Below are positions 14,344 through 28,782 of a stretch of 64,000 nucleotides of DNA, in pieces. Made by a program: the position numbers and the translations under genes. Origin of the DNA: Acidobacteriota bacterium (GTDB lineage: Bacteria > Acidobacteriota > Vicinamibacteria > Vicinamibacterales > UBA2999); the NCBI GenBank assembly GCA_963169195.1, contig CAUJDN010000018.1:1-64000 (forward strand). Direction: 5' to 3'. Position 1 is the first letter of the stretch; each line of letters starts with the position of its first letter. Below the pieces are notes generated by a model. It was given only the letters and a program-made list of their open reading frames with translations. It was not told the origin of the DNA and made no database searches.

Positions 14344-15531
14344 TCAGCGCTTCATGTTCTCGCGCAGCTGCCGCAGCGGCTCGAAGGCGTACTCGATGAG
14401 CCTCCGGCGTCCGACGACGATGCGGGCTTCGCCCTTCATGCCCACCTGCAATGGCCGCCGTTCGCCGTTCGCCATCACGTGGTCCTGGTCCGTCGACGCG
14501 AAGGCGACGAACGTCGCGCCCGCCGGATCCGAGACGGCGGCGGGGCTGATCCAGTCGAGCCTCCCGGTGAGGGTGCCGTACCGCTGGTAGGGGAACGCCT
14601 CGAAGAACAACCGCACCTGCTGCCCGACGGCCAGACGCGGCAGCCCCGTCTCGCCAAGCTCGATGCGCGCGCGCGGCACATCGGCGGCGGGCGCGATCTG
14701 GCACAGCTCCTGGCCGGCCTCCACGGAGTTGCCGGCGCTGCGGTGCGCGAGCGCAATGACCACACCGTCGTACGGCGCACGAATCGACAGGAGGTCGCCG
14801 GTGGAGTCGTTGAGCGGGGTCTCGAGGGCCGCGATGCGGGTCCTGAGCTTCTCCACCTCCGCGGCGGCATCGGCCCGCCACGCGGCCTGGTCCGCCTCCA
14901 TGCGCTGGATCTCCATCTCGGCAGCTTCCAGCCGGCGCTCGGCCAGCGTCAGCTCCTTCTCGGCCTGCTCCATCTCGAGCTGCTCGGCGATCAGCGTGGT
15001 CTTCGGGACCAGTTCGGCGGCGGCGAGCGACCGGGTGCGCGCCAGCAGGTCGCGCCTGGTCGCGACCGTCCGCTGGCGGAACTCGACGTCGCGTTTGGCC
15101 TGGTCGATCTCGTTCCGCTCGATGGCGAGCCGCTCCTGGTAGGCCGCCTCGGTCTTGGCCATGCTCGCGGTCCGGCTGCTCACGTCGGCACCAGCCGTCA
15201 TCAGCTCCGTCCGCCAGGTCCTGATCTCGTCCGAGCGCAGGACGAACAGCTCGGCCCCGGCGGTGACCCGCTGGCCCTCGGTCACTCTCACTGCCGCCAC
15301 GACGGCGAGCCGAGGCGACCGGATGGGGTCCGCGCCTCCGGTGGGGGCGAGCACGAAGGGGCTGCGGACCGTCTCGGGCACCTCGACGACGATGAGGGCC
15401 GCCAGGGCCGTGGCGAACAGCAGCACGAGCAGCCAGCCGATGGCCCGGACGACGGCCGGCGGCGGGTCCTGCGGCAGCATCGCCGAGGGCGTGTCGAGCG
15501 AGGATCCGCTGGCCGGTCCTTCGGTGCTCAC
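14344..15531 (-). CDS. HlyD-family periplasmic adaptor of the peptide exporter
   Basis: 395 residues: cytoplasmic N-terminus, one transmembrane helix (about residues 31-50), a biotinyl-lipoyl-like segment (IRSPRLAVVAAVRVTEGQRVTAG), a long coiled-coil hairpin (about 110-235), the returning half-motif LSIRAPYDGVVIAL, and a beta-barrel domain. This is the membrane-fusion component that links an inner-membrane ABC transporter to an outer-membrane exit duct. It starts 7 nt after the stop of the ABC transporter and is followed by two precursor-like peptides, so the strand encodes cargo and exporter together. Confidence 0.88.
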   Translation of the reverse strand: MSTEGPASGSSLDTPSAMLPQDPPPAVVRAIGWLLVLLFATALAALIVVEVPETVRSPFVLAPTGGADPIRSPRLAVVAAVRVTEGQRVTAGAELFVLRSDEIRTWRTELMTAGADVSSRTASMAKTEAAYQERLAIERNEIDQAKRDVEFRQRTVATRRDLLARTRSLAAAELVPKTTLIAEQLEMEQAEKELTLAERRLEAAEMEIQRMEADQAAWRADAAAEVEKLRTRIAALETPLNDSTGDLLSIRAPYDGVVIALAHRSAGNSVEAGQELCQIAPAADVPRARIELGETGLPRLAVGQQVRLFFEAFPYQRYGTLTGRLDWISPAAVSDPAGATFVAFASTDQDHVMANGERRPLQVGMKGEARIVVGRRRLIEYAFEPLRQLRENMKR

Positions 15532-15538
15532 GGTGTCC

Positions 15539-18500
15539 TCAGATGCCCAGCTGCTGGCTGGACAGGTGGAAGTAGAGGCCGCGCCGGGCCATGAGCTCGT
15601 CGTGGGTGCCGACCTCCGCCACCTCGCCCTGCTCGAGCACGACGATGACGTCGGCGTCGCGGATGGTGCTCAGGCGATGCGCGATCACGAGGGCCGTGCG
15701 GCCGGCCATCATCCGTCCGAGGTTGTCCTGGATGGCGCGTTCCGATTCCGTGTCGAGCGCGCTCGTGGCCTCGTCGAAGATGAGGATCGGCGGGTCCAGA
15801 TAGAGCGCACGGGCAATCGCGATGCGCTGCTTCTGGCCGCCGGACAGGCTCAGCCCCGACTCGCCGATCCGGGTCTCGTACCCCATCGGCAGGCGCATGA
15901 TGAAGTCGTGCGCGTTGGCGGCCTGGGCGCTTCGCAGCACGCGCTCGGCGTCGGGCTCGTGATCGCCGAACGCGATGTTCTCGGCGATGGTCGCGTCGAA
16001 CATGTGGTTCTCCTGCAAGACCATGCCAATCTGCCGCCTGACGTCGCGGTAGTTCAGCGTCCTGAGATCGACGTGGTCGACCAGGATGGTGCCCGCCGTC
16101 GGCTCCAGCAGCCCCGCGATCAGCTTGATCAGGGTGGTCTTCCCGCTGCCGCTCCGTCCGACCAGCGCCGTGGTCCTGCCGCGCGGGAACTCGAGATCGA
16201 TGCCCTTGAGGATGTGCGGCGCCTCCGGCCCGCCGTACTGGAAGCCGACCTGGCGGAGCTGGATGTGCCCCTCGATCGACGGCACGGGCTTGAGCCGCGT
16301 CCGGTCCCGTCCCTGCTCCGGCTCGGGCTCGAAGATGTCGTTGAGCCGGTTCATCAGGACGGAGATGAGCTGGAACTGGTCCCAGACGCCGAGCGCCCGG
16401 ACGATGCTGCTCGACGCCATCGCGGTCAGCGCGCTGAAGGCCACGAAGGCGCCGACCGTGAGCCGGCCCTGCATCACCTGCGTGGCGCCGACCCACAGGA
16501 AGAGCGCCGTTGACACGAGGCCCACCGTCTGCAGAACGCTGTCGTACGACATCAGGATGAAGTTCGCCCGGAACATCTTCCGTGACACGCCGAGGAACTC
16601 GTGGAGCATGGCGTCGCGAAAGGCGAGTTCGCCCGAGGCGGCCTTCACCGCCTCGATGCCCTTGATGGCATCCACCTGGTGCGAGGCGTACTTGCCCTGG
16701 CTCTCCTCGATGTCCGCGAAGAGCGGGCGGAGCACGCGGACCGAGAACCACATCAGGCCCACATAGGCGGGGACGGTGGCGAGGAAGACCAGCCCGAGGA
16801 ACGGGCTGTACACCATCATCAGCACGATCGCGCCCAGGGCCGTCAGCAGCGCCAGCATGCCGCCGATGCCGTGCTGCACCATGAACTGCCGGATCTGCCG
16901 GGCCCCGTCCAGCCGCCGTTGAATGTCGCCGGTCCGGCGGCTGCTGAAGTACAGGAGCGGCAGCGACAGGAGCTGTCGCGTCAGGAAGTCGAGCAGCGAG
17001 GCGTCGATCCGGACCGCCACGAAGCTGAGCAGGTACTCCTGCGCGAGGCTGGCGGCCTGCACGAAGATCACCGTCACCGCCATCGCGATCAGGATGATCC
17101 GCAGCAGCCCGACGTCGTTCTCGACGATGACCGTGTCCACCACCATCTGCGTGAAGATCGGGAACAGCAGCTGGAGGAGCGTGACCGTGACGGCGAGCAG
17201 CAGCGCCAGCGTCAGCGGGCCGCGGTGCTTCGTGACGAACGGCACCAGCCACGACAGCGACGACCGACCTTCCGGCGCCTGCTCGAACGCCTCGGTGTAG
17301 TCGAAGAGGGCCGCGTAGCCGGACCACTTCTCCTCGAACTCGGCCCGCGCGATGCGGCGCGTCCCGACCGCGGGGTCGGCCACCTTGACGCGCGTCTTCC
17401 CCACGTCGAAGAGCACCATCCAGTGGTTGCCCTCCCAGTGGACGATGGCGGGCAGCGGCATGTCGGGGAGGTGGCGGCGCGACACCTTCAGCGCGCGCGC
17501 CGACAGTCCCAGCTCGGTCGCGGCATGGCAGAGGGCCCGGAGGCTCGTCCCGTCGCGTGAGGTGTGGCACAGCTGCCGGATGTGCGCGAGGCTGACCTTG
17601 CGCCCGAAGTGGCGGCAGATCATGGCCAGCGACGCCGCCCCGCAGTCCATCTCGTCGATCTGCTGCACGTGCGGGAAGCGCCGGATGCGCCGGCGCCGCG
17701 TCCTGAACCACCCGTCCTCCTCGTCCGCCGGCCCCTCCCCCTCCGGCGGCGCGGGGCCGAGGGCGACCTTGTCCTGGACGCTCGCCTCGGCGGGCAGCTG
17801 CTCGACCGCGAAGTCCACCGGCACCCGTGCCTCGACGTCGGCCCTGTACTGCGCGAGACGCTCCTGCAGCAGCGCGTGGAACTCCGGGAAGCGCGCCTTC
17901 AGGTCGCGCACGGCGTCGGGCGTGAGGGCCAGCAGCCGGACCGGCGTCACGGCGACGGCCGACGCCGCCCGCGGTGAATCGTTCAGGATGGACAGCTCGC
18001 CAAAGAAGTCACCCTCGCGGTAGAAGGCCAGGTTGCGCGACCGGCCGTCCCGTTCGGCAAACACCCGGACCTTGCCCGACTCGACGACGTACATCGGGCC
18101 CGGAGGGTCCCCCTCACGCAGGATCAGCGCGCCCTGCGGCACGTCCACGACGCTCAGGCGCTCGATGAGCGCCTGCAGCACGCGGGCGGGGAGCCGCCCG
18201 AAGTTGGAGAACTCGTAGAGAAAGCCGTGCAGCGTGCGCAGCCGGGCGGTCCCCTCGAGAGCGTGGCGGAGCTCGGGGTGCCGCTCGAGCAGCGCCAGGA
18301 CGTCGCCGCGATCGAACCGCAGCACGTGCACCGCCGTGCTGCACCGGACGGTCGCGGTCCGCGTGCCGCCCGAGAGCAGGGCCGCCTCTCCGAACACATC
18401 ACCCGGCCGAAGCGTGGCGAGCGCGATCTCGCGGCGGCCATCCGCTTCCTTGACCACGCGGGCGCGGCCGAGCGTCAGCAGGTAGAAGGCATCGACCTCG

Positions 18501-18637
18501 TCACCCTGTTTGACGATCACGTCGCCGAAGTCGAAGCGCTCTTCCTGTGCGAGGGCGCTCACCTGCGCGAGCTGCTCGTCCGGCAGGATCCGGAAGACGG
18601 GCGATCGCCGCAGCGCCTCGTCGAGCGGCAGGTTCAC
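15539..18637 (-). CDS. Peptidase C39-containing ABC transporter with tandem cyclic-nucleotide-binding domains
   Basis: 1032 residues. Two N-terminal cNMP/CRP-type beta-roll domains (about 10-125 and 135-260) each have PGDVFGEAALL-type phosphate-binding cassettes. Next is a C39 leader-peptidase domain (about 320-445) with an apparently intact triad: Cys332 in DEMDCGAAS, His405 in GNHWMVLF and Asp421 in VADPAVG. Six transmembrane segments and an ATPase domain follow (Walker A GRSGSGKTT near 827, LSGGQ near 931, Walker B LIFDEATSA). C39 domains cut after double-glycine leaders while exporting the peptide. The GTG start at 18637 overlaps the stop of the upstream parvulin-like gene (GTGA). The longer open frame upstream is a shadow of that gene. 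Confidence 0.92.
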   Translation of the reverse strand: MNLPLDEALRRSPVFRILPDEQLAQVSALAQEERFDFGDVIVKQGDEVDAFYLLTLGRARVVKEADGRREIALATLRPGDVFGEAALLSGGTRTATVRCSTAVHVLRFDRGDVLALLERHPELRHALEGTARLRTLHGFLYEFSNFGRLPARVLQALIERLSVVDVPQGALILREGDPPGPMYVVESGKVRVFAERDGRSRNLAFYREGDFFGELSILNDSPRAASAVAVTPVRLLALTPDAVRDLKARFPEFHALLQERLAQYRADVEARVPVDFAVEQLPAEASVQDKVALGPAPPEGEGPADEEDGWFRTRRRRIRRFPHVQQIDEMDCGAASLAMICRHFGRKVSLAHIRQLCHTSRDGTSLRALCHAATELGLSARALKVSRRHLPDMPLPAIVHWEGNHWMVLFDVGKTRVKVADPAVGTRRIARAEFEEKWSGYAALFDYTEAFEQAPEGRSSLSWLVPFVTKHRGPLTLALLLAVTVTLLQLLFPIFTQMVVDTVIVENDVGLLRIILIAMAVTVIFVQAASLAQEYLLSFVAVRIDASLLDFLTRQLLSLPLLYFSSRRTGDIQRRLDGARQIRQFMVQHGIGGMLALLTALGAIVLMMVYSPFLGLVFLATVPAYVGLMWFSVRVLRPLFADIEESQGKYASHQVDAIKGIEAVKAASGELAFRDAMLHEFLGVSRKMFRANFILMSYDSVLQTVGLVSTALFLWVGATQVMQGRLTVGAFVAFSALTAMASSSIVRALGVWDQFQLISVLMNRLNDIFEPEPEQGRDRTRLKPVPSIEGHIQLRQVGFQYGGPEAPHILKGIDLEFPRGRTTALVGRSGSGKTTLIKLIAGLLEPTAGTILVDHVDLRTLNYRDVRRQIGMVLQENHMFDATIAENIAFGDHEPDAERVLRSAQAANAHDFIMRLPMGYETRIGESGLSLSGGQKQRIAIARALYLDPPILIFDEATSALDTESERAIQDNLGRMMAGRTALVIAHRLSTIRDADVIVVLEQGEVAEVGTHDELMARRGLYFHLSSQQLGI

Positions 18638-19755
18638 GAGACGCCCCCGGCGGGCATGGGCCACTGGACCCAGCGGCCCGCCAGCTGGTCGAAATGCTGA
18701 TCGAGGAGCCGCTGTTCGACCCGCGCGCGCACCGCGCCGTCCGCCGGATCGGGATCGGTGCGGCCGACGAGGCGGTGGACGTGGTACCCGCCTTCGTGCG
18801 GCGCGACGTCGAGCATCTCGCCGGGGACCGCGCGCAGCACCTGTTGCTGGACCTCCGGCCGCAGCTCCTCGAAGAACGCCTCCGTGCGTTCGAAGGAGTA
18901 GCCCCCCTCCGAGGCCACCTCCTCCATCGAGAGGCCGTCGGCCGTCACGCACATCGCGGCCTCACGCGCGGCGTCGAGCGTGTCCACGTCGATCGTCTCG
19001 AGCACGACGAGGCTGAGCGGAAGCCGCCGCAGCGCCAGGGCGTCCGCAAGACGTTCGGCCGTGAGGAGCCTCGCGCGCTCCTGCTCGAACGCGGCCTCCA
19101 GGCCGGGGAGCTCGGCGAGCCACCGCGGATCGGCGCCAATCCGGGCGGCCCAGGCCGCGGTCATCGCCTCGTCTTCGGCGTCGGCGTGGTCGTCCTGCGC
19201 CGGGCCGTCGTCGCCGGCGAGCCCGATCTCGACACCACCGGCCTGCGCGGACGGCTCCGCGGCCCGGGCACGGGCGGCGGCGATCCGCCAGCCGAGCGCG
19301 CGCGCCAGCCGATCGAGGTCGCCCGAGAGCGTCAGCTCGGTCAGCAGCAGCACGAGCAGGTCATCCGTCGCCGAGCGATAGTCGGCCGGCCCGGGCTCGA
19401 CCGGCTCGCCCAGCACGTCCGCCCAGTGGTGCCGGAGGAAGTGGGCGTCGAAGTCCTCGAGCGTCAGGCCGTGATGCTCCAGCCACCGCTCGGTCTCCTC
19501 CGCCGTGATCAGATCGCGGTCGTAACGAAACTGCTCCGACATCGACTGCACGGCCCCTTCATCGGCCGAGATCTCTCCTGACTCCACGAGTGCGGCGGCC
19601 CGCTCTTCGCACGCGACCAGCCGGAGCAGCCGCGACCATGTCGCCTGGAGGTCGCCACGGGCATGCGCCGCGACGACCACGTCCGCCACCGCGAGCGCCC
19701 GTCCGCCGGCGCTGAACACCAGTCGGTTCCACGCGCCCTGGCCCGCGTCTGCCAT
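18634..19755 (-). CDS. Parvulin/SurA-like peptidyl-prolyl isomerase of the peptide cluster
   Basis: 373 residues, no signal peptide. The N-terminal half is helical and SurA-like; residues about 245-365 match the parvulin fold pattern (LSMEEVASEGGY, LRPEVQQQVLRAVPGEMLDVAPHEGGYHVHRLV, then a final helix with ARVEQRLLDQHFDQLA). Several canonical parvulin active-site residues are not obvious, so it may act as a chaperone only. The acidic central linker (AGDDGPAQDDHADAEDE) could attract the Lys-rich precursors. It is first in the minus-strand export operon, overlaps the ABC transporter gene, and is divergent from the precursor-YcaO operon. Confidence 0.72.
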   Translation of the reverse strand: MADAGQGAWNRLVFSAGGRALAVADVVVAAHARGDLQATWSRLLRLVACEERAAALVESGEISADEGAVQSMSEQFRYDRDLITAEETERWLEHHGLTLEDFDAHFLRHHWADVLGEPVEPGPADYRSATDDLLVLLLTELTLSGDLDRLARALGWRIAAARARAAEPSAQAGGVEIGLAGDDGPAQDDHADAEDEAMTAAWAARIGADPRWLAELPGLEAAFEQERARLLTAERLADALALRRLPLSLVVLETIDVDTLDAAREAAMCVTADGLSMEEVASEGGYSFERTEAFFEELRPEVQQQVLRAVPGEMLDVAPHEGGYHVHRLVGRTDPDPADGAVRARVEQRLLDQHFDQLAGRWVQWPMPAGGVS

Positions 19756-19863: not shown

Positions 19864-19971
19864 ATGGCGAAAAAGACTGCGAAGTCCTCCAAGGTGAAGG
19901 TGCGGGATCTCAAGCCCGCCAAGAGCGGCGCGGTCAAGGGCGGCGCGGCGAAGAAGCGGGCGGAGAAGTAG
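19864..19971 (+). CDS. Putative RiPP precursor peptide 3 (35 aa)
   Basis: 35-residue Lys-rich peptide immediately upstream of the YcaO gene. It contains VKVRDLKPAK, then AVKGG and an eight-residue tail AAKKRAEK. The leader motif, the position of Gly-Gly and the core length match peptides 1 and 4. This core has no Cys, Ser, Thr or Tyr, so any modification of it must target backbone amides, Lys, Arg or Glu side chains, or the termini. GAAAGGA precedes the ATG, and a strong sigma70-type promoter lies 20-48 nt upstream. It is too short for most gene finders. Confidence 0.78.
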   Translation: MAKKTAKSSKVKVRDLKPAKSGAVKGGAAKKRAEK

Positions 19972-19996: not shown

Positions 19997-21139
19997 GTGG
20001 CCAGGTACGATCTCGGCGGAACGCTGCGCGAGCGCGACGCGGCCGCCACCCTGGCGTGGGTCCGCCCGTTCCTGCCGGCCTGCGGCATCACGCGACTGGC
20101 CAACGTCACCGGCCTGGATCGCATCGGGATCCCGGTCTGGATGTGTGTGCGGCCCAACGGCCGATCGCTCGCGGTTTCGCAAGGCAAGGGCACGACGCAC
20201 GAACTGGCACAGGCTTCGGCCGTCATGGAGGCGATCGAGAGCTTCCACGCGGAGCACGCCCCTCCACCGGTGCTGGTCGCCTCCTGCCGCGCCGCGCGCC
20301 GGCGCCATGCCGTGCTCGGCCCCAGGCGCTTCACGCCCGGGCTGCGATGGCGCACCTTCAGCGACGATCGGGACCTGTGCTGGAGCGCCGCCACCGATCT
20401 CGCCAGCGGCGAGCCGCTCCTCCTGCCCCACGTCCGCGTCACCCTGGACTGGAGCCACCCGCATCCCGACGCCGGCCTGCTCCAGGTCACGAGCACGGGT
20501 CTCGCCTCCGGGAACTCACGGGCCGAGGCGCTCTGCCATGCCCTGTTCGAAGTGATCGAACGCGACGCCGAGTGGCGGTGGCAGCGGTCGTCGTCGGCCG
20601 CGGAGCGTGCCGGGGAAATCGACCCCACGACCGTGGACACGCCCCACCTGCGCGCCATCCTCGACCGGCTGGCGGCCGCCGAGGTCCAGGTCCGCATGCA
20701 CGACATCACGTCCCGCGTCGGCATCCCGGTCTTCGCCTGCGAGATCCACGACGCCGGCCCCGTCGGCCGAATCGGCCCCTTCGGCGGGTACGGCTGCCAC
20801 CTCTCGCCCGAGATCGCGCTGTCGCGCGCCGTGACCGAGGCGGTGCAGTCACGCCTGACCTATATCGCCGGATCGCGTGACGACATGTACCCGGCGAGCT
20901 ACGAGCCCGGGAACCCGGCGGCCGCCGGCACGCCGGCCGCCTCACCCACCAGGGACTTCCGCCGGGCCGTCACGCCCCCGATGGGCACGACCTTCGAGGA
21001 GGACCTGCAGATCACGCGTGGGCTGCTCCGTGAGGCCGGCATGGACCGGGTGGCCGCCGTCGATCTCACCCACCCCGAGATCGGCATCCCGGTCGTGATG
21101 GCCGTCGTCCCCGGGATGCGCGAAACCGATGGGCACTGA
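19997..21139 (+). CDS. YcaO-domain protein (RiPP cyclodehydratase / thioamidation enzyme)
   Basis: 380 residues. YcaO enzymes use ATP to phosphorylate a backbone amide oxygen and so drive azoline, amidine or thioamide formation. The ATP/Mg-binding signatures are present: SQGKGTTHELAQASAVMEAIE (Glu78, Glu81) and the TSTGLASG...ALFEVIERDAE region (Glu185, Glu188). SRLTYIAGSRDD follows later. No fused E1-like domain is seen, so this is the stand-alone type, and the overlapping downstream gene is TfuA, its partner in thioamide systems. The GTG start at 19997 is 25 nt after precursor 3. Because the precursors lack Cys, thioamidation seems more likely than thiazole formation (inference). Confidence 0.92.
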   Translation: MARYDLGGTLRERDAAATLAWVRPFLPACGITRLANVTGLDRIGIPVWMCVRPNGRSLAVSQGKGTTHELAQASAVMEAIESFHAEHAPPPVLVASCRAARRRHAVLGPRRFTPGLRWRTFSDDRDLCWSAATDLASGEPLLLPHVRVTLDWSHPHPDAGLLQVTSTGLASGNSRAEALCHALFEVIERDAEWRWQRSSSAAERAGEIDPTTVDTPHLRAILDRLAAAEVQVRMHDITSRVGIPVFACEIHDAGPVGRIGPFGGYGCHLSPEIALSRAVTEAVQSRLTYIAGSRDDMYPASYEPGNPAAAGTPAASPTRDFRRAVTPPMGTTFEEDLQITRGLLREAGMDRVAAVDLTHPEIGIPVVMAVVPGMRETDGH

Positions 21140-22868
21140 CGACACGGTCGTGTTCCTGGGCCCGTCGCTGCCCGTCGCGGAGGCGCGCCGGATCCTCCCC
21201 GCCCGATACCTGCCGCCCGTCCGCTGTGGCGATGTCCTGCGCGTGCGCCGCATGAAGCCGCGCGCCGTGGCCATCATCGACGGGGTCTTCGAGAGTGTCG
21301 GCGCCGTCTGGCACAAGGAAATCCTCCTCGCGCTCGAGGACGGCATCGCCGTCTACGGTGCCGCCAGCATGGGCGCGCTCCGCGCGGCGGAACTGGCCCC
21401 CTTCGGCATGGTCGGCATCGGCGCGATCTTCGAGGCCTATCGGGACGGGGTCTATACCGACGACGACGAGGTCGCGCTCCTGCAGGGGCCGGCCGCCTTC
21501 GGGTACCCGGCCATGTCGGAGGCGATGGTGAACGTCCGGGCGACGGCGGCACGGGCCGTGGAGGCAGGCGTCATCGCCCCCGGCTCGGCCGACCGGCTGG
21601 TCCGGGTGGCGAAGGGCATCTTCTACCAGGAGCGCTCCCTGGACCTTACCGTCGAGGCGGCGTGGGGACAGGGCACGGACCGTGGCGAGGCCGCGCGCTT
21701 CCGGCGCTTCCTCGAGGACGGCGGGTACGTGAACCAGAAGCGGCTGGATGCGGAGGCGCTGCTCCGCCACGTGGCGGCGTCCCTGCCCGCGACGCCCCGT
21801 CCATCGGCCGGCGTGCCGGGGGTCAACCGTTCGTCGTTCATCCTGCGTCTCCAGCACCAGGCCATGTGCGGCCCATTCGACCTGCCGGCGCCGGACCTGC
21901 CGCGCGAGGAGCAGGTGGCCGCGGCGGCCATGCAACGGGGACGCCGCTCGAGTCAGCTGCGGCGGCTCGCACAGATGCTCGCGGCCGCCTACGCGCTGGC
22001 GCGCGTGCGACAGGTGCCGGTCACCGACACCCATCGGCAGCGGGTCTTCACGGCCGGGGATCTCGGGCTCGGACCCGCCGCGCGGACGAAGCGCTGGGCC
22101 GTGGCGCGGGACCTGACCGGCGAGGCGTGCGCGGCCCTGGTCGACCGGCTGGGCGTGATCCAGGCGCTCCAAGCCTCGTTCGAGCATCGCGTCGGCCGGC
22201 ATGAGGCCAGGCGCCGGTACGACGCACACCTGCTCGACATGATGCGGATCGAGGGACGGTACGCCTCGTACCGTCCCCGGGGGCGGGCGTCCGGGCGGGC
22301 GGTCGATCGGGCCGTGCTGCGAAACGCGGCCAGGCGGGACGGCGCGGCATTCGCGCTCGATCGGCGTGCAGGCGTGCTGCGGTGCCTCGTCGCCGACGTC
22401 GTCGCGTCGATGGGCGTCGCGCCGTGCCGGCGGCCGCAGGAACTCTCCGACGACTTCCGGCGTGCGCGTGGGTTGGAGCGGCGGGCGGCGACGCTGGCCT
22501 GGCGGCGGGCGAACAACCTCGATGCCCCCCGGTACGAGGCGCTGGTCGAGGGTGACGCTCGCGTGGCCTCCGTCTTTGGCGCCGACGAGCCCCACGTGCT
22601 CGGGCTCTACCTGCTGGCCGATCCGGTCTGCTGGCTGCTCGATGCCATCCGGATCGCGGGAATGTATGGTCGGCTCGCGCGACGGCTGTGCTATGGTTCG
22701 CTCGAGTACGAGCCGGCTACTCATTCCGGGAGGACCGTGATGGCGAAGGCAAAGGCGGCCGCCAAGAAGGCGGTGAAGAAGGCGGCGAAGAAGGCCGCGA
22801 AGGACCTCGCACCGAAGAAGGCCGCGAACGTCAAGGGCGGGGCCGTGCGCAAGAAGGTGTACGAGTAG
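21129..22868 (+). CDS. TfuA-like protein reading in frame into a precursor peptide
   Basis: The open frame is 579 residues. Residues 1 to about 215 are a clear TfuA core (VFLGPSLPVAEARRILP; DGVFESVGAVWHKEILLALEDG; VYGAASMGALRAAEL; AIFEAYRDGVYTDDDEVAL). TfuA proteins assist YcaO in thioamidation, probably by handling sulfur. Residues about 250-520 are a helical region of unknown role. There is no stop codon before the precursor-like segment at 22740-22868: the frame continues through EYEPATHSGRTV into the peptide's Met. A ribosome site (GGGAGG) precedes that ATG, so internal initiation is likely, but a full-length TfuA-precursor fusion would also be made unless a stop has been lost. ATG 21129 overlaps the YcaO end by 11 nt. 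Confidence 0.85.
   Translation: MGTDDTVVFLGPSLPVAEARRILPARYLPPVRCGDVLRVRRMKPRAVAIIDGVFESVGAVWHKEILLALEDGIAVYGAASMGALRAAELAPFGMVGIGAIFEAYRDGVYTDDDEVALLQGPAAFGYPAMSEAMVNVRATAARAVEAGVIAPGSADRLVRVAKGIFYQERSLDLTVEAAWGQGTDRGEAARFRRFLEDGGYVNQKRLDAEALLRHVAASLPATPRPSAGVPGVNRSSFILRLQHQAMCGPFDLPAPDLPREEQVAAAAMQRGRRSSQLRRLAQMLAAAYALARVRQVPVTDTHRQRVFTAGDLGLGPAARTKRWAVARDLTGEACAALVDRLGVIQALQASFEHRVGRHEARRRYDAHLLDMMRIEGRYASYRPRGRASGRAVDRAVLRNAARRDGAAFALDRRAGVLRCLVADVVASMGVAPCRRPQELSDDFRRARGLERRAATLAWRRANNLDAPRYEALVEGDARVASVFGADEPHVLGLYLLADPVCWLLDAIRIAGMYGRLARRLCYGSLEYEPATHSGRTVMAKAKAAAKKAVKKAAKKAAKDLAPKKAANVKGGAVRKKVYE
22740..22868 (+). CDS. Putative RiPP precursor peptide 4 (42 aa), nested in the TfuA frame
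   Basis: 42 residues starting at the ATG at 22740, in the same frame as TfuA. The leader is an Ala/Lys repeat (AAKKAVKKAAKKAAK) that resembles histone H1 tails, then DLAPKK, ANVKGG and the eight-residue tail AVRKKVYE. GGGAGG is 6 nt upstream of the ATG, and a TGA in another frame overlaps it (TGATG), which is how a normal coupled start would look. The final residues K/R-V/T-Y are similar to peptide 1. It is followed by a strong hairpin at 22885-22911. Confidence 0.75.
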   Translation: MAKAKAAAKKAVKKAAKKAAKDLAPKKAANVKGGAVRKKVYE

Positions 22869-22952: not shown

Positions 22953-24395
22953 ATGGCGGTCCTCCCATTCCGCGGCGAATTCGGCGATCCCCTGGACCTG
23001 GCCGCCCTGGCCGCGATCAATCACGACGGCGACGCGTCGCCGCTGCTCGAGGGCGTGCTCCGGGACCCGCACCTCGCGGCGCTCGATTCCGATCTGGACT
23101 TCGCAGCCGCGGCCCGCCAGTCGCGATCGGGCCACTTCGACGAGCGCGCCTTTCTCGATTCCGGGCAGCAGGCCATCACCCGGTACATCCGCCGGTCGCG
23201 GGCACCCCTGCGGCTCGTGTTCACGCGCCACGCGGACCCGGAGCGGCTGTTGCGGCAGAAGCTCGTCGCCGTGGCCGCAGCCCTTCGGAACGAGCCGACC
23301 GCGCCTCGCCCCGGGATTCGACCGTCCTGCCGGGTGGAAGCCCTGTTCGGCCGGCTGGCCCGTCGGCTGCCTCTCGCCCACGTGCCGATGGCACGGCCAC
23401 TCGCCATCGACGAGGCCTTTCCGGGCGCCAGCCGGTACGCCTGGCGCGTGGCCACCGCGCATGGATCCGGGCGGCGCGCCGCCGGCACGGCGCGGATCGA
23501 GGTCGGGCGGGCCGTCTTCGTGGACGACGTGGACGTGGACGCGCGCACGGGCGCGGTGCGGATCGGCGGCGCCGGGGCCGGCACCCGCATCCGCACCGAG
23601 GTGGTCGTGAAGGGCGTCGGGGCCACCCCGTTTACCGCCAATCGTTTCAGCGCCCGCGCATCCGGTGTGCTCACCATGCTGCAGGGTGAGCGCGACTGGC
23701 GCCACAGCACCATGCTCGCGCGCGGCGGTGTGCCCGTCTACCGCCCGCTGGAGTTGACGCTGCTCCCGTACTGTCACTGGCATCCCACAATGGGCTGGCG
23801 GCCGATGGTGGTCTACGCGCGCCTGCCCCTCGAGAACCTGCGCGTCTCCGACCTCGAGCTGCTGCCGCCCTCGCGCGGGCGTCACGCGCTCGACGGGGTG
23901 CGCCGCAAGCTGGCGACCCTCGCCGGCGTCGAGCCGGCGGACATCGACCCCACCATCCTGGTGCGCGTCGTCGTGGCACGCCTCGGCCGGATCGCCGGCC
24001 TGTGCCAGGGGGGGACCACGCTCGGCGGACGGCCGTTCTTCCATGGCTTCCTGCACTGGCAGAACGTCAGCCTGCTCGGCGAGCTCGTCGACCTGGGAGA
24101 AGGACGGTTCGTGGACGACCGCCGCGCCCTGCAACGCGCCTACGCACGGAGCGGCTACGTGGACCCCGCGAAGGCGTGGACGGCGAGCGTGCGGGCGGCC
24201 CGGGACGAACTGGCGGTGTTCCACCAGGTCGCCCGGCGCTTCGCACGAGTGACCAACGGCCTGCTGCGGCCCGGGCGGCGCACGCCGCCCGGCCTCGATC
24301 GGTTGTTTGCACGCACGCACGCGGAGGGCCGGGCCGGGACGCGGGCCGACGATGTGGCGGAGCTGGTCCAGGCCGCGATGCGGGGGACGCCGTGA
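22953..24395 (+). CDS. Divergent SelO-like (AMPylase-fold) protein in RiPP cluster
   Basis: 480 residues. Two regions match SelO, the pseudokinase-fold enzyme that transfers AMP to proteins. One is VVVKGVGATPFTANRFS (Lys220 in the position of the LKGAGxTPxxR lysine). The other is FFHGFLHWQNVSLLGELVDLG (residues 363-382), which aligns with the SelO HGxLNTDNMSxLGLTIDYG motif. The metal-binding Asn371 and Asp380 keep the 9-residue spacing, but the catalytic-base Asp is replaced by Gln370. It may adenylylate the peptide, a partner, or act in another ATP-dependent reaction. ATG 22953 has only a weak ribosome site. Its TGA overlaps the radical SAM gene (GTGA). The assignment rests on motif reading only. 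Confidence 0.65.
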   Translation: MAVLPFRGEFGDPLDLAALAAINHDGDASPLLEGVLRDPHLAALDSDLDFAAAARQSRSGHFDERAFLDSGQQAITRYIRRSRAPLRLVFTRHADPERLLRQKLVAVAAALRNEPTAPRPGIRPSCRVEALFGRLARRLPLAHVPMARPLAIDEAFPGASRYAWRVATAHGSGRRAAGTARIEVGRAVFVDDVDVDARTGAVRIGGAGAGTRIRTEVVVKGVGATPFTANRFSARASGVLTMLQGERDWRHSTMLARGGVPVYRPLELTLLPYCHWHPTMGWRPMVVYARLPLENLRVSDLELLPPSRGRHALDGVRRKLATLAGVEPADIDPTILVRVVVARLGRIAGLCQGGTTLGGRPFFHGFLHWQNVSLLGELVDLGEGRFVDDRRALQRAYARSGYVDPAKAWTASVRAARDELAVFHQVARRFARVTNGLLRPGRRTPPGLDRLFARTHAEGRAGTRADDVAELVQAAMRGTP

Positions 24396-26053
24396 TCGAC
24401 TGCCTCTTCATCGGCCACAACGACGGCTCGTTTCCCGAGTACGTCGATCAGGTGCGGGCGATGGGACCCGACGCCGGGCCCTGGCGTCGAGTGAACCTCT
24501 CCTTCGTGGAGCTGGACGGCGTGCCGCACCGGGCGATGGACGTGCTGAATCGCGTCAACGGCCGCGATGGGCGACGGCGACCGACGCTGAACAACATGGA
24601 GGGCCTCTCGCCCACCATCGCGTACCTGGCCAGCCATGTTCGCCGTCACGGCTTCTCGTTCGACTTCGTGACGCTGTTCCAGGACGAGCGGCGCCGCCTG
24701 GCCCGCCTGCTGCGGGGTGGGGACGTGATGGCCGTGGCCATCACGACGACGTTCTACGTCGGCACGTGGTGGATCGAGGAGATCGTCCACTTCGTCCGCC
24801 GCCTCAGCCCGTCCACGCGCATCATCGTGGGCGGCCCGTACCTGTACAACCAGTCGGTGCTCGCGCCGGAGCGAATGGACGAGCTCTTCGCCGAGCTCGA
24901 CGCGGACGTGTACGTGATCAGCCGCGAGGGCGAGCTCGCGCTCACCCGCGTCCTCGACGCGCTGAAGGGCCGCCGGAGCCTCGGCGCCATCGACAACATC
25001 GCGTACCGGCGTCGCGGGCGGTTCGTGCGCACGACGGCGTCACCCGAAGTCAACCCGCTGGCCGCGAACCCGGTGGACTACGACCTCTTCCCGTCGCGCA
25101 TCGGCGAGTTCGTGGCCATCCGCACATCGAAGTCGTGCCCGTTCGCGTGCGCGTTCTGCTCCTATCCGCAGCAGGCCGGCGCCTATGTCTACGAGGGCAT
25201 CGACGCCGTGGAGCAGGAGCTCGATCGGATCCGGCGGGTCGGGACCGTGACCACGCTCGCGTTCATCGACGACACCGTCAACGTGCCCAGGGGCCGGTTC
25301 AAGGACCTCCTCCGGATGATGATCGGCAAGGGCTACCGGTTCCGCTGGAACGCCAACCTGCGCGCGGACCACGCGGACGCCGAGTGCATCGACCTGATGC
25401 GACGGAGCGGCTGTGAAGGCGTGTTCCTCGGCGTCGAGTCGGGCAGCGACGCGATGCTGAAGCGGATGAACAAGACCTCGCGATCGGCGGACTACCGCCG
25501 CGTGATTCCTCAGCTCAGGGACGCCGGGATTCTCACCCACTGCAGCCTCATCATCGGATTCCCTGGCGAGACCAGGGACACGGTGCGGGAGACGATCGAC
25601 CTCATCGAGGAGGCGCGACCCGACACCTACCGGGCGCACCTCTGGTATTGCGACCCGACGACGCCCGTCTGGCGGAAACGCCACGAGCTGGGCCTGGAGG
25701 GCGCGCAGTTCGACTGGCGGCACTCCACGATGGACTCGGCCATGGCCGCCGACCTCGTGGACGAACTGTTCCTGACGGTCCAGAACTCGACATGGCTCCC
25801 GCAGCACGGCTTCGATTCCCGGTGCCTCTTCTACCTGCAGCGGAAGGGCATGCCCCTGCCCCAGATCCTGCGGTTCCTGCGGGCGTTCAACGACGCGGTC
25901 CGGTTCAGGCTCCGGCACCCGGACGCCCCCGGGATCGAGCCGTCGCTGCTGGCGCAGCTGGAAGAGTGCGGCCGGTTCGAGCCCGTCCGCGCGGGCGCAC
26001 GGCCCTCCAGGACGGACGCCGCTCCTCCGGCGCTCTCAGCCGCCCGCGCCTGA
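24392..26053 (+). CDS. PhpK-like cobalamin-binding radical SAM protein
   Basis: 553 residues. The start IDCLFIGHNDGSFPEYVDQV and the segment AVAITTTFYV...RIIVGGPYLYN follow the pattern of the PhpK family, whose founding member methylates phosphorus in phosphinothricin synthesis. An N-terminal B12-binding domain (about 1-215) precedes a radical SAM barrel with CxxxCxxC at Cys249, Cys253 and Cys256 (SKSCPFACAFC). Later GVESGSDAMLKRMNK and IIGFPGETRDT are typical of class B enzymes. It probably methylates an unactivated position of the peptide product. The GTG start overlaps the SelO-like gene. Its 3' end overlaps the convergent LigT-like gene by 18 nt. Confidence 0.85.
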   Translation: MIDCLFIGHNDGSFPEYVDQVRAMGPDAGPWRRVNLSFVELDGVPHRAMDVLNRVNGRDGRRRPTLNNMEGLSPTIAYLASHVRRHGFSFDFVTLFQDERRRLARLLRGGDVMAVAITTTFYVGTWWIEEIVHFVRRLSPSTRIIVGGPYLYNQSVLAPERMDELFAELDADVYVISREGELALTRVLDALKGRRSLGAIDNIAYRRRGRFVRTTASPEVNPLAANPVDYDLFPSRIGEFVAIRTSKSCPFACAFCSYPQQAGAYVYEGIDAVEQELDRIRRVGTVTTLAFIDDTVNVPRGRFKDLLRMMIGKGYRFRWNANLRADHADAECIDLMRRSGCEGVFLGVESGSDAMLKRMNKTSRSADYRRVIPQLRDAGILTHCSLIIGFPGETRDTVRETIDLIEEARPDTYRAHLWYCDPTTPVWRKRHELGLEGAQFDWRHSTMDSAMAADLVDELFLTVQNSTWLPQHGFDSRCLFYLQRKGMPLPQILRFLRAFNDAVRFRLRHPDAPGIEPSLLAQLEECGRFEPVRAGARPSRTDAAPPALSAARA

Positions 26054-26611
26054 TGGCCGGCCCGGCCGCGTCGCGCGGGGGCGGGCGAGCGGCAGCCGGG
26101 ACACCAGCCGCCAGCGCGCCTCGCCGGCGCGCATGCGCCAGAGCAGCACCTCGCGGCAGATGAAGCGCCCCGCGAAGCGCCGGCGACAAAGCGCCTGCCA
26201 GGCCGCGCCGGCGCGCTCGGGCGCGAGGCGCCCGGCCAGCGTGATGTGCGGGTGCGAGAAGGGGACGTGCCGGTCGCCCGGATCGAGCCGGCCCGCCACG
26301 GCGCGCGCACAGGCGCGCTGGCATCGGACGAGCGCGCGCGTCCGATCGACCGGCACGTAGATGAAGTCCCTGTCGCCGAAGTACGACACGCCCGTGTAGC
26401 CGATCGGAAAGGCCTCGAGACGCCCGATGGCCGCGCGAAGCGCGCGCACGAGGTCGCGCTCGCGGCGCCCCTTCCCGAGCCTGCGGGGAATGACCAGCGT
26501 GATGTGGGGCGCGGACCGGGCGTCGGATCCGTAGCGGCGCCCGATGGCCGAGACGCGCCGGGAGAGGGCGGCGGGGACCGCGATGTGCAGGTAATATTGC
26601 GCCGCGCGCAT
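26036..26611 (-). CDS. 2'-5' RNA ligase / cyclic phosphodiesterase family protein
   Basis: 191 residues from ATG 26611. The two HxT-type motifs of the 2H phosphoesterase superfamily are present, as APHITLVIP and HPHITLAGR, spaced about 80 residues apart. Members include LigT/ThpR, which open 2',3'-cyclic phosphates or join RNA. An ATG at 26623 in the same frame would add four residues. The start overlaps the divergent PHP gene: the sequence CATG serves both start codons. It ends 18 nt inside the convergent radical SAM gene. Confidence 0.82.
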   Translation of the reverse strand: MRAAQYYLHIAVPAALSRRVSAIGRRYGSDARSAPHITLVIPRRLGKGRRERDLVRALRAAIGRLEAFPIGYTGVSYFGDRDFIYVPVDRTRALVRCQRACARAVAGRLDPGDRHVPFSHPHITLAGRLAPERAGAAWQALCRRRFAGRFICREVLLWRMRAGEARWRLVSRLPLARPRATRPGRPSGAGG

Positions 26612-27476
26612 GACGGCACCCATTCTCTACGATGCGCACATGCACACGCCGTTGTGCGGCCATGCCATCGGCCAGCCGGAGGCCTACGCGAGACAGGCCC
26701 TGCGTGTGGGGCTCGGGGGCGTCGTCTTCACGTGTCATGCCCCGATGCCGGACGGCTTCTGGCCGGGCGTGCGGATGCGCGAGGACGAGCTCGACACCTA
26801 CGTCGCGATCGTCGCCCGCGCGGCGGACCGCTTCCGCGGCCGGCTCGACGTCAGGCTCGGCCTCGAGAGCGAGTACTTCCCGGGCTTCGAGCGGTACCTG
26901 GCCCGGCTCCATCGCCGCGCCCGCTTCGAGTACATCCTCGGCTCCGTGCACTGGCAATCGCCCGAGTACCGGGCGCGCTTCGGGGCGGGCCCGCTCGAAT
27001 CGTTCCGGCGCCGGTACTTCACCCACCTGGCCGACGCCGCGGAGACGGGCCTCTACGACTGCCTCAGCCATCCCGACCTGATCAAGAACCATCGTCCGGC
27101 GTCGTGGCGCTTCTCGCGCCTGGCCGATCACGTGGGCCGGTGCCTCGATCGGATTGCCGCCACCGGTGTCGCCATGGAGCTGAACACGTCCGGGCTCCGG
27201 AAGCCCTGCGCCGAGATGAACCCGGGCCACGAGATGCTCGCCCTGATGGCCGCGCGAGGCATCCCGGTGGTCGTGGGCTCCGACGCGCATCGCCCGGAGC
27301 GCGTGGGCGCGCACTTCGTCGAGGCGCTCGAGGCGCTCGAACGCGCCGGCTACGCGGAGGTGCACGTGTTCGCGCGGCGCCGCCGGCGGGCGCTGCGCAT
27401 TGCCGACGTCAGGGCCTGCCTGCGCGCCGTCCCGGGCGCGGTGGGGCCCGCACGACGGTCGCGGCGACCCGCGTGA
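26610..27476 (+). CDS. PHP-domain phosphatase (histidinol-phosphatase-like)
   Basis: 288 residues. PHP-fold metal-binding motifs are clear: DAHMHTPLCGHA at the start, TCHAPMP, LESEYFPG, GSVHW, SHPDLIK and GSDAH near the end. These match the HisK/HisJ type histidinol-phosphatase, which makes histidinol in histidine synthesis. The neighbour downstream is a HisC-like aminotransferase, which supports a histidine-related role, but that enzyme carries an export signal. Translation starts at an ATG overlapping the divergent LigT-like start. Confidence 0.82.
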   Translation: MTAPILYDAHMHTPLCGHAIGQPEAYARQALRVGLGGVVFTCHAPMPDGFWPGVRMREDELDTYVAIVARAADRFRGRLDVRLGLESEYFPGFERYLARLHRRARFEYILGSVHWQSPEYRARFGAGPLESFRRRYFTHLADAAETGLYDCLSHPDLIKNHRPASWRFSRLADHVGRCLDRIAATGVAMELNTSGLRKPCAEMNPGHEMLALMAARGIPVVVGSDAHRPERVGAHFVEALEALERAGYAEVHVFARRRRRALRIADVRACLRAVPGAVGPARRSRRPA

Positions 27477-27591
27477 CTCGCCGGCCTGTCTTCGTTTGTC
27501 ACCAGGCCCCATTCCCGTTCACGCGTCACCCCCTTCGGGACTACAATCAGCGTCCACGGTTCGTGGTCGACGGGAGTCGTCTGGAGGAAGC

Positions 27592-28782
27592 ATGGGCAAG
27601 CACGTGTCGCGACGCAACTTCATGGGTGGGATGGCGGCGGCGGTGGGATATCTGAGCACGCGGCCGAGCGCCGAGCTGTGGGCCCAGGGCGGCCCCGCGG
27701 CCGTCGCGGCACAGCGCGCGCGCGGGCGGATGACGCCCGAGCAGTACGACCGGATGGCCAAGCTCGCCAACAACGAGAACAACTTCGGGCCGCCCGCGTC
27801 GGTGATGAAGGCGATGAACGCGGCGTGGAAGTACGTCAACCGCTACGGCTACCCGGACGGCAACATCGTCCAGGTGATCGCCGACCATCACGGCGTCAAG
27901 CCCGAGAACATCCTGCTCGGCGCCGGCTCCGGCGAAATCCTCGACGTCGTCGGGACCACGTTCCTGCTGGGCGGCAAGAAGGCCATCGGCTGCGACCCGT
28001 CGTACGGATCGGTGTACCAGCACGCGACGGCCATCAAGGCCGACTCGATCCGCGTGCCGCTCAAGGCCGACTACAACCTCGACACCAACAGGATGATCGA
28101 GCTGGCCAACCAGCGCGCCAGCGAGATCGGCTTCTACTACCTGTGCAACCCGAACAACCCGACCGGGCTGATCGTGCCGAAGCAGGAGGTGAAGGCCATC
28201 GTCGAGAACCTGCCGAAGGGCATGCCGATCCTGATCGACGAGGCGTACCACCACTTCGTGAACACTCCGGACTACGAGACCTCCGTTCCGTACGTCCTCG
28301 AAGGCCGGCCGGTCATCGTCGCGCGCACGTTCTCGAAGATCGCGGGCCTGGCGGCCATGCGCCTGGGCTACGCCGTGGCGCCGCGCGAGATCATCCAGCA
28401 GATGCGGCCGTTCTCGATGGGCAGCATCAACGTGCTGGTGAAGCACGGCGGCGTGGCGTCGATCCAGGACACGGCCGCGCAGGCCGACGTGAAGGACAAG
28501 ATCATCACGCTCCGCACGAAGACCGCCGGCGAGCTGAAGGCGCACGGCTACGACGTCATCCCGTCGGAGACCAATTTCTTCATGGTGCACCTGGGCCGCC
28601 CGGTGCAGCCCGTGATCGAGGAATTCCGCCAGCGGGAGGTCCTGGTGGGCCGTCCCTTCCCGCCGATGCTCGAGCACCTGCGCGTGTCGGTCGGGACGGC
28701 CGAGGAGATGGATCGCTTCATGGCCGCCTTCAAGCAGATCTTCCCGGCAAAGACCCGGCAGACCAGCCTCGCGGGGCGGTAG
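27592..28782 (+). CDS. Tat-exported HisC-like PLP aminotransferase
   Basis: 396 residues. The N-terminus has a twin-arginine signal (VSRRNFMGGMAAAVG...LWAQ), so the enzyme should fold with its cofactor in the cytoplasm and be exported to the periplasm. The rest is a fold-type I aminotransferase of the histidinol-phosphate type: ANNENNFGPP, GAGSGEILD, the CNPNNPTG motif, IDEAYHHF, and the PLP lysine in RTFSKIAGLAAMRLGYA. Substrate in the periplasm is unknown. GGAGGA precedes ATG 27592. A hairpin follows the gene. Confidence 0.88.
   Translation: MGKHVSRRNFMGGMAAAVGYLSTRPSAELWAQGGPAAVAAQRARGRMTPEQYDRMAKLANNENNFGPPASVMKAMNAAWKYVNRYGYPDGNIVQVIADHHGVKPENILLGAGSGEILDVVGTTFLLGGKKAIGCDPSYGSVYQHATAIKADSIRVPLKADYNLDTNRMIELANQRASEIGFYYLCNPNNPTGLIVPKQEVKAIVENLPKGMPILIDEAYHHFVNTPDYETSVPYVLEGRPVIVARTFSKIAGLAAMRLGYAVAPREIIQQMRPFSMGSINVLVKHGGVASIQDTAAQADVKDKIITLRTKTAGELKAHGYDVIPSETNFFMVHLGRPVQPVIEEFRQREVLVGRPFPPMLEHLRVSVGTAEEMDRFMAAFKQIFPAKTRQTSLAGR

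Follow-up and report, generated by a model that had tools for sequence, protein, structure and literature searches.

Among the genes of what looks like a peptide-modification cluster in a soil bacterium lies one whose product recalls SelO, and the question is what such a protein does there. Members of the SelO superfamily have a kinase fold and move AMP, not phosphate. In the window (the whole analysed stretch of 64,000 nucleotides, to which all positions refer) a first-pass annotation had read this open reading frame as SelO-like on account of two landmarks, KGVGATPF (context VVVKGVGATPF) with K220 and the segment HGFLHWQNVSLLGELVDLG with Q370, N371 and D380. It had further proposed that the gene, coupled by a GTGA overlap to a radical-SAM gene, provides a new RiPP step. 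The coordinates and both landmarks were found as given there, and the GTG at 24392 with which the radical-SAM gene begins does lie inside the stop codon of the SelO-like gene (Table 1). Because codon positions 1, 2 and 3 differ at 37, 30 and 57% of the aligned codons between this gene and its homologue, the reading frame is real.

Table 1. Features of the SelO-like locus, in window coordinates.
Feature	Position	Strand	Evidence or remark
HlyD-type membrane fusion protein of the exporter	14344..15531	-	TIGR01843 E 2.8e-45; PF13437 E 1.3e-17
Peptidase C39 / ABC exporter with two cNMP-binding domains	15539..18952	-	PF03412 E 3.3e-38; PF00005; PF00664; PF00027
Weak TIGR04500 (PpiC-related peptide maturation) match	18634..19755	-	E 8.3e-6, far below the family cut-off
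Candidate precursor peptide 1	19864..19971	+	MAKKTAKSSKVKVRDLKPAKSGAVKGGAAKKRAEK; sequence, scan, locus-unique pattern
YcaO-domain protein	19997..21139	+	PF02624 E 1.5e-77; TIGR00702 182 bits, above cut-off
TfuA protein	21129..22868	+	PF07812 E 7.4e-46; NF033432 207 bits; TfuA part is residues 1-216
Candidate precursor peptide 2	22740..22868	+	MAKAKAAAKKAVKKAAKKAAKDLAPKKAANVKGGAVRKKVYE; scan, locus-unique pattern
SelO-like protein, 480 aa	22953..24395	+	ATG 22953, TGA 24393-24395
Key codons of the SelO-like gene	K220 23610-23612; Q370 24060-24062; N371 24063-24065; D380 24090-24092	+	
B12-binding radical-SAM protein, PhpK family (TIGR04479)	24392..26053	+	629 bits, cut-off 600; CPFACAFC motif; GTG start
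2H phosphoesterase (LigT-like)	26036..26623	-	both HIT motifs; reciprocal-best match of the L002 copy

Similarity to SelO

Judged from sequence profiles, the window protein is almost certainly a remote relative of SelO/YdiU within the SelO superfamily. On its own it gives sub-threshold matches, to Pfam SelO (PF02696, curated cut-off 22.8 bits) with 11.1 bits and E 0.17 over residues 217-270 and to the YdiU model with E 0.038 over residues 362-389, and these two weak matches are collinear, N-lobe and then catalytic loop in the correct order. The sole close homologue in the searched sets, P0003 (53% identical, locus L002 of an Acidobacteria soil MAG), lies narrowly above the Pfam cut-off (22.9 versus 22.8 bits, E 4.4e-5, in a single stretch 224-396) and matches the YdiU model at E 5.9e-6. 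Searched with a profile of these two proteins, 193 genomes of the class yielded a single non-self match (E 2.6e-4), and this protein is a genuine SelO carrying HGVMNTDN. Comparison of the same profile with six genuine SelOs by hhalign yielded a score of 55.5 (E 1.6e-6), the maximum for 60 column-shuffled profiles being 25.0. The relationship to SelO that the first-pass annotation had suggested is thus borne out by profile comparisons with shuffled controls.

Further homologues are rare. A search of 396 genomes of the phylum returned P0003 again, the searches within the class added none, and none was seen on the viral contigs searched. In 72,556 plasmids tblastn found six weak places (E 0.06-0.5), two of them annotated as SelO/YdiU and the remaining four unannotated, from the same genus as one of the annotated places. 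Against the PDB the window protein gave no match with phmmer, and the two-sequence profile reached SelO 6eac at E 0.93. An ordinary SelO gene (378 bits) is present elsewhere in the window's genome. Six viral contigs of IMG/VR (L053-L058) encode ordinary SelO genes as well, which are probably host DNA at provirus edges.

An AlphaFold model computed with the two homologues only had a pLDDT of 44 and no fold match. When SelO rows were added to the alignment, mean pLDDT was 47 and pTM 0.50, and Foldseek returned nine matches below E 0.001, all nine of them SelO/YdiU, for this model that is not independent of SelO. VIA-align gave Z values of 12.4-14.0 for SelO and 8.1 for the next structure, NiRAN, on a scale where non-SelO kinases at about 7-8 are indistinguishable from background. 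The model agrees with a SelO fold, though not independently, since SelO rows were part of its alignment.

The altered active site

In an alignment with five SelOs the residues R186, K220, R290, H364, G365, N371, D380 and G382 are invariant. The window protein and SelO/YdiU (PF02696; PDB 6eac, 6lna, 6k20) are therefore alike in the Lys, the two Arg, the HG, the metal Asn and the DxG Asp, and the +9 interval between Asn and Asp is identical, as the first-pass annotation had read it. The two conserved Arg positions suit the flipped ATP of SelO. K220, N371 and D380 are all kept in P0003 too. The Asp just before the metal-binding Asn (D252, human D338), which from the SelO structure papers we take to be the catalytic base, is Gln370 in the window protein and likewise Gln in P0003, so that the exchange noticed at first reading is real. 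Since the human SelO mutant D338A, altered in the residue preceding N339, has been used as an inactive mutant (PMC12375108), this change hits a residue needed for AMPylation. Modelling of the human protein assigns metal binding to N339 and D348 (PMC3281104).

Other differences were found in the alignment. The alpha-C Glu of SelO is Asp248 in the window protein and also Asp in the homologue, and the Asn three residues before the metal Asn is His368 in both homologues. Where SelO reads GETIDYGPCAF, the window protein has GELVDLGEGRF. At the C-terminus some 170 residues of SelO, among them the conserved IPRNH and the Cys region (TFCGT), have no counterpart, whereas an additional helical extension of about 80 amino acids is found at the N-terminus. 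Unlike SelO, the window protein stands in a peptide cluster.

The peptide cluster

The two candidate precursor peptides are paralogous, small and Lys-rich, and have DLxPxKxxxVKGGA in common with identical spacing. Scanning 192 genomes of the class for DNA that could encode DLxPxKxxxVKGG gave exactly two matches, each of them at the window locus, and no peptide of this type was found near the remaining YcaO-TfuA pairs in the class. The segments after VKGG (AAKKRAEK and AVRKKVYE) contain no Ser or Thr and a single Tyr, so the classical targets of SelO are scarce there. Peptide 2 is in frame with the TfuA open reading frame with no stop between them, and its ATG at 22740 is preceded by a ribosome-binding-like sequence of its own, GGGAGGACC; it may be translated by itself or fused to TfuA.

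In sequence, the YcaO protein is nearest to the archaeal YcaO of McrA-glycine thioamidation (202 bits against TIGR03266, below the cut-off of 365), and the YcaO-TfuA pair as a whole is nearest to the archaeal glycine-thioamidation pair. TfuA carries a long C-terminal extension of about 320 amino acids, by which it differs from known YcaO-TfuA systems and in which residues 417-481 match TIGR04500 weakly (E 1.7e-9). The protein encoded at 18634-19755, with a weak match to this same family, is a possible maturation partner; one graspetide pathway depends on a TIGR04500 protein as partner (PMC13097080). For the C39/ABC exporter the best NCBIfam model is TIGR03796.

In thioamidated RiPP clusters of the YcaO-TfuA type, too, the YcaO and TfuA genes stand next to each other and are accompanied by small precursors and export genes. 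What sets the window cluster apart are the Lys/Ala-rich DLxPxKxxxVKGG peptides and the SelO-like and PhpK-family partners. The gene content is that of a RiPP-like cluster of thioamide type, with a thioamide as predicted product. No defence system was matched by PADLOC, and a reading of the locus as such a system was dropped. At 26610-28782 a gene for a PHP-type histidinol-phosphatase-like protein follows, and then one for a class I/II aminotransferase with a twin-arginine-like signal.

SelO relatives in microcin clusters

SelO-fold proteins in peptide maturation are already known. MchC and MceJ were recognised as remote SelO homologues in 2012 by Dudkiewicz et al. and are needed for siderophore attachment to the microcins H47 and E492 (PMC3281104). 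Thus, of the new RiPP step that the first-pass annotation had proposed, the RiPP-like cluster stands but the novelty of a SelO relative in peptide maturation does not. MceIJ joins a glucosylated siderophore to the C-terminal carboxylate of the microcin (PMC7680869), while the exact roles of MceI and MceJ were called unknown in a review (PMC7472721). In the literature searched, which left most subscription journals outside, we found no system that pairs SelO with YcaO/TfuA or with a RiPP.

For comparison we used MchC of E. coli Nissle (L065:15652-17202) and six plasmid relatives. Each of the seven reads Ser-Asn at the loop, the Asp being lost, and keeps the Lys, the Glu and the +9 Asp; two of them pass the Pfam SelO cut-off. 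In three of the clusters the MchC-like gene adjoins radical-SAM and HlyD export genes, in one case C39-ABC too, and the radical-SAM gene is of another kind than that of the window. MchC/MceJ and the window protein are SelO-superfamily proteins in secreted-peptide clusters with HlyD and C39-ABC, in which the same Asp is lost, the Asn-Asp spacing of +9 is kept and, in some MchC relatives, a radical-SAM gene is near. However, the Asp position is occupied by Ser in MchC/MceJ and by Gln in the window protein, and the microcin proteins have a HlyC-type acyltransferase as partner and no YcaO/TfuA, whereas in the window cluster it is the reverse: tblastn with six such acyltransferases found no match at E 0.01 in the window or at L002.

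By hhalign the window protein scored 22.8 against the MchC profile, which is below the shuffled maximum of 27.1, though the motif columns line up. Direct membership in the MchC group is not supported by this score, nor by the absence of the acyltransferase partner. Because the similarity to MchC is not demonstrably above chance and this partner is missing, the window protein is best seen, from its sequence and neighbours, as a lineage apart from MchC with a parallel role. In work of Nolan and Walsh, the carboxylate activation by MceIJ is said to pass through a peptidyl-AMP. A second precedent is the polyglutamylase pseudokinase SidJ, in which the kinase fold is used for glutamylation (PMC6858067), a non-kinase, AMP-related chemistry modifying a carboxylate. 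SidJ also has a Gln at a catalytic-loop position, but this Gln replaces the HRD Asp and not the residue before the Asn, SidJ belongs to another family, and the likeness is drawn from papers only.

Three of the plasmid loci (L067 of Klebsiella sp. PL-2018, L069 of Photobacterium damselae, L070 of Vibrio alginolyticus) are bacteriocin-like clusters with an MchC-like SelO, a HlyC-type acyltransferase, a radical-SAM gene and HlyD export, C39-ABC being seen in L067. No description of these three was found in the literature searched. Candidate precursors in L068-L070 start with MxxLxxxEIxxVDGGG.

Partner genes and the second locus

At L002 a gap of 10 bases separates the SelO-like gene from a downstream PhpK-family radical-SAM gene (its protein 62% identical to that of the window), and a 2H phosphoesterase gene adjoins. 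Exactly these three genes are common to both loci, with gene order changed. Each genome has two members of the 2H phosphoesterase family, one of which is found at the SelO-like locus; the two locus-linked proteins are reciprocal best matches, at 118 bits where the other copy scores 31, and each has retained two HIT motifs. That this linkage persists despite the altered gene order suggests phosphodiester or nucleotide chemistry. The radical-SAM protein scores above the cut-off of the PhpK P-methyltransferase family, and a role in phosphinate chemistry was considered here and rejected: since PEP mutase (TIGR02320) of the C-P bond pathway had no match in either genome (G000, G330), the substrate is probably not a phosphinate from this pathway.

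The shared trio could also be a small-molecule tailoring module, for nucleotidyl or phosphorus chemistry, that merely lies beside the RiPP genes and does not act on the peptide. At L002 (4720-8860) the SelO-like/radical-SAM pair is followed by genes for a HAD phosphatase, an O-methyltransferase and a second B12 radical-SAM protein (KedN5-like). Neither YcaO nor TfuA nor a precursor was seen on this contig of 9.3 kb, where small open reading frames in the gaps gave no convincing precursor, so that the tie of the SelO-like protein to peptide, YcaO and TfuA comes from the window genome alone. Elsewhere in the phylum (L034, L036, L038) PhpK-family radical-SAM proteins adjoin NRPS genes. However, the L002 contig is short and a precursor may lie beyond its end, and in the window the SelO-like gene begins 85 bases past candidate precursor 2 on the same strand, with peptides, YcaO and TfuA upstream all in the same direction. 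We regard the small-molecule module as unlikely, and it is likely that the SelO-like protein works in the peptide pathway.

Possible chemistry

A catalytically dead protein serving as binding partner or scaffold, for instance by presenting the precursor to YcaO or to the radical-SAM enzyme, would agree with the loss of the Asp essential in human SelO and with the change of the alpha-C Glu to Asp. There is a parallel in the suggestion of Dudkiewicz et al. that MchC is possibly an accessory of its acyltransferase (PMC3281104). But Lys, both Arg, Asn, Asp, HG and G, none of which a scaffold needs, are kept between two proteins of 53% identity, and SelO itself was formerly believed dead, which makes a dead protein rather improbable.

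An ordinary AMPylator of Ser, Thr or Tyr, acting on the peptide leader or on a cluster enzyme, would have to do without the Asp. His368, present in both homologues where SelO has Asn, might replace it as base, and targets exist in the Thr and Ser of the peptide 1 leader and the one Tyr of peptide 2. Yet peptide 1 has no hydroxyl residue after VKGG, and general AMPylation is already served by the normal SelO of the genome, so we think this improbable. A kinase that phosphorylates the peptide or some metabolite of the cluster, for which the fold and the phosphatase genes near both loci (PHP in the window, HAD at L002) could be quoted, is very improbable, because the canonical HRD Asp is absent and the retained Arg pair favours AMP transfer.

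The explanation we favour, and hold tentatively, is that this divergent SelO-superfamily enzyme is a maturation enzyme of the thioamide-type RiPP cluster; it draws on two homologues, the only ones in the searched sets, and on a poor fold model (pLDDT 47). The protein would bind Mg-ATP in the manner of SelO and move AMP to the precursor, at a group for which an Asp base is dispensable; a carboxylate (the C-terminus or Glu) is the likeliest such group. Two peptide-linked lineages keep the residues for ATP and metal and lose the Asp, which fits a nucleophile with no need of deprotonation, such as a carboxylate. It is this Asp loss, the precedents of MceIJ and SidJ and the lack of Ser and Thr downstream of VKGG that lead us to favour AMP-dependent carboxylate activation. 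By analogy, transfer of AMP to a carboxylate, or by another base-free route, is possible but somewhat doubtful. The AMP might be retained on the precursor, or it might activate its acceptor group for a subsequent reaction, which is what MceIJ and SidJ seem to do. The role of the 2H phosphoesterase would be to remove or trim a nucleotide phosphodiester.

In a bolder version, a short Lys-rich thioamidated peptide would be adenylated by the SelO-fold enzyme, either at its C-terminus or on the carboxylate of a side chain. The resulting nucleotide-peptide or activated peptide would next be methylated by the PhpK-family enzyme, and the 2H phosphoesterase would act in editing or self-protection. We consider this full scheme a long shot; if true, it would define a previously undescribed RiPP class with AMP-dependent tailoring.

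Significance

What is new at this locus, although partly anticipated by MchC/MceJ, is a separate lineage without the usual catalytic Asp and with unusual enzyme partners. It brings to three the separate SelO lineages associated with gene clusters for peptides or natural products; together with MchC/MceJ it indicates that loss of the Asp beside the metal-binding Asn accompanies a peptide-linked role. As candidate substrates the locus offers two small peptides specific to the cluster, and its set of partners (radical SAM, 2H phosphoesterase) is compact. AMP activation of carboxylates by such proteins is thus testable, and the outcome would settle the role of MceJ/MchC in the siderophore microcins.
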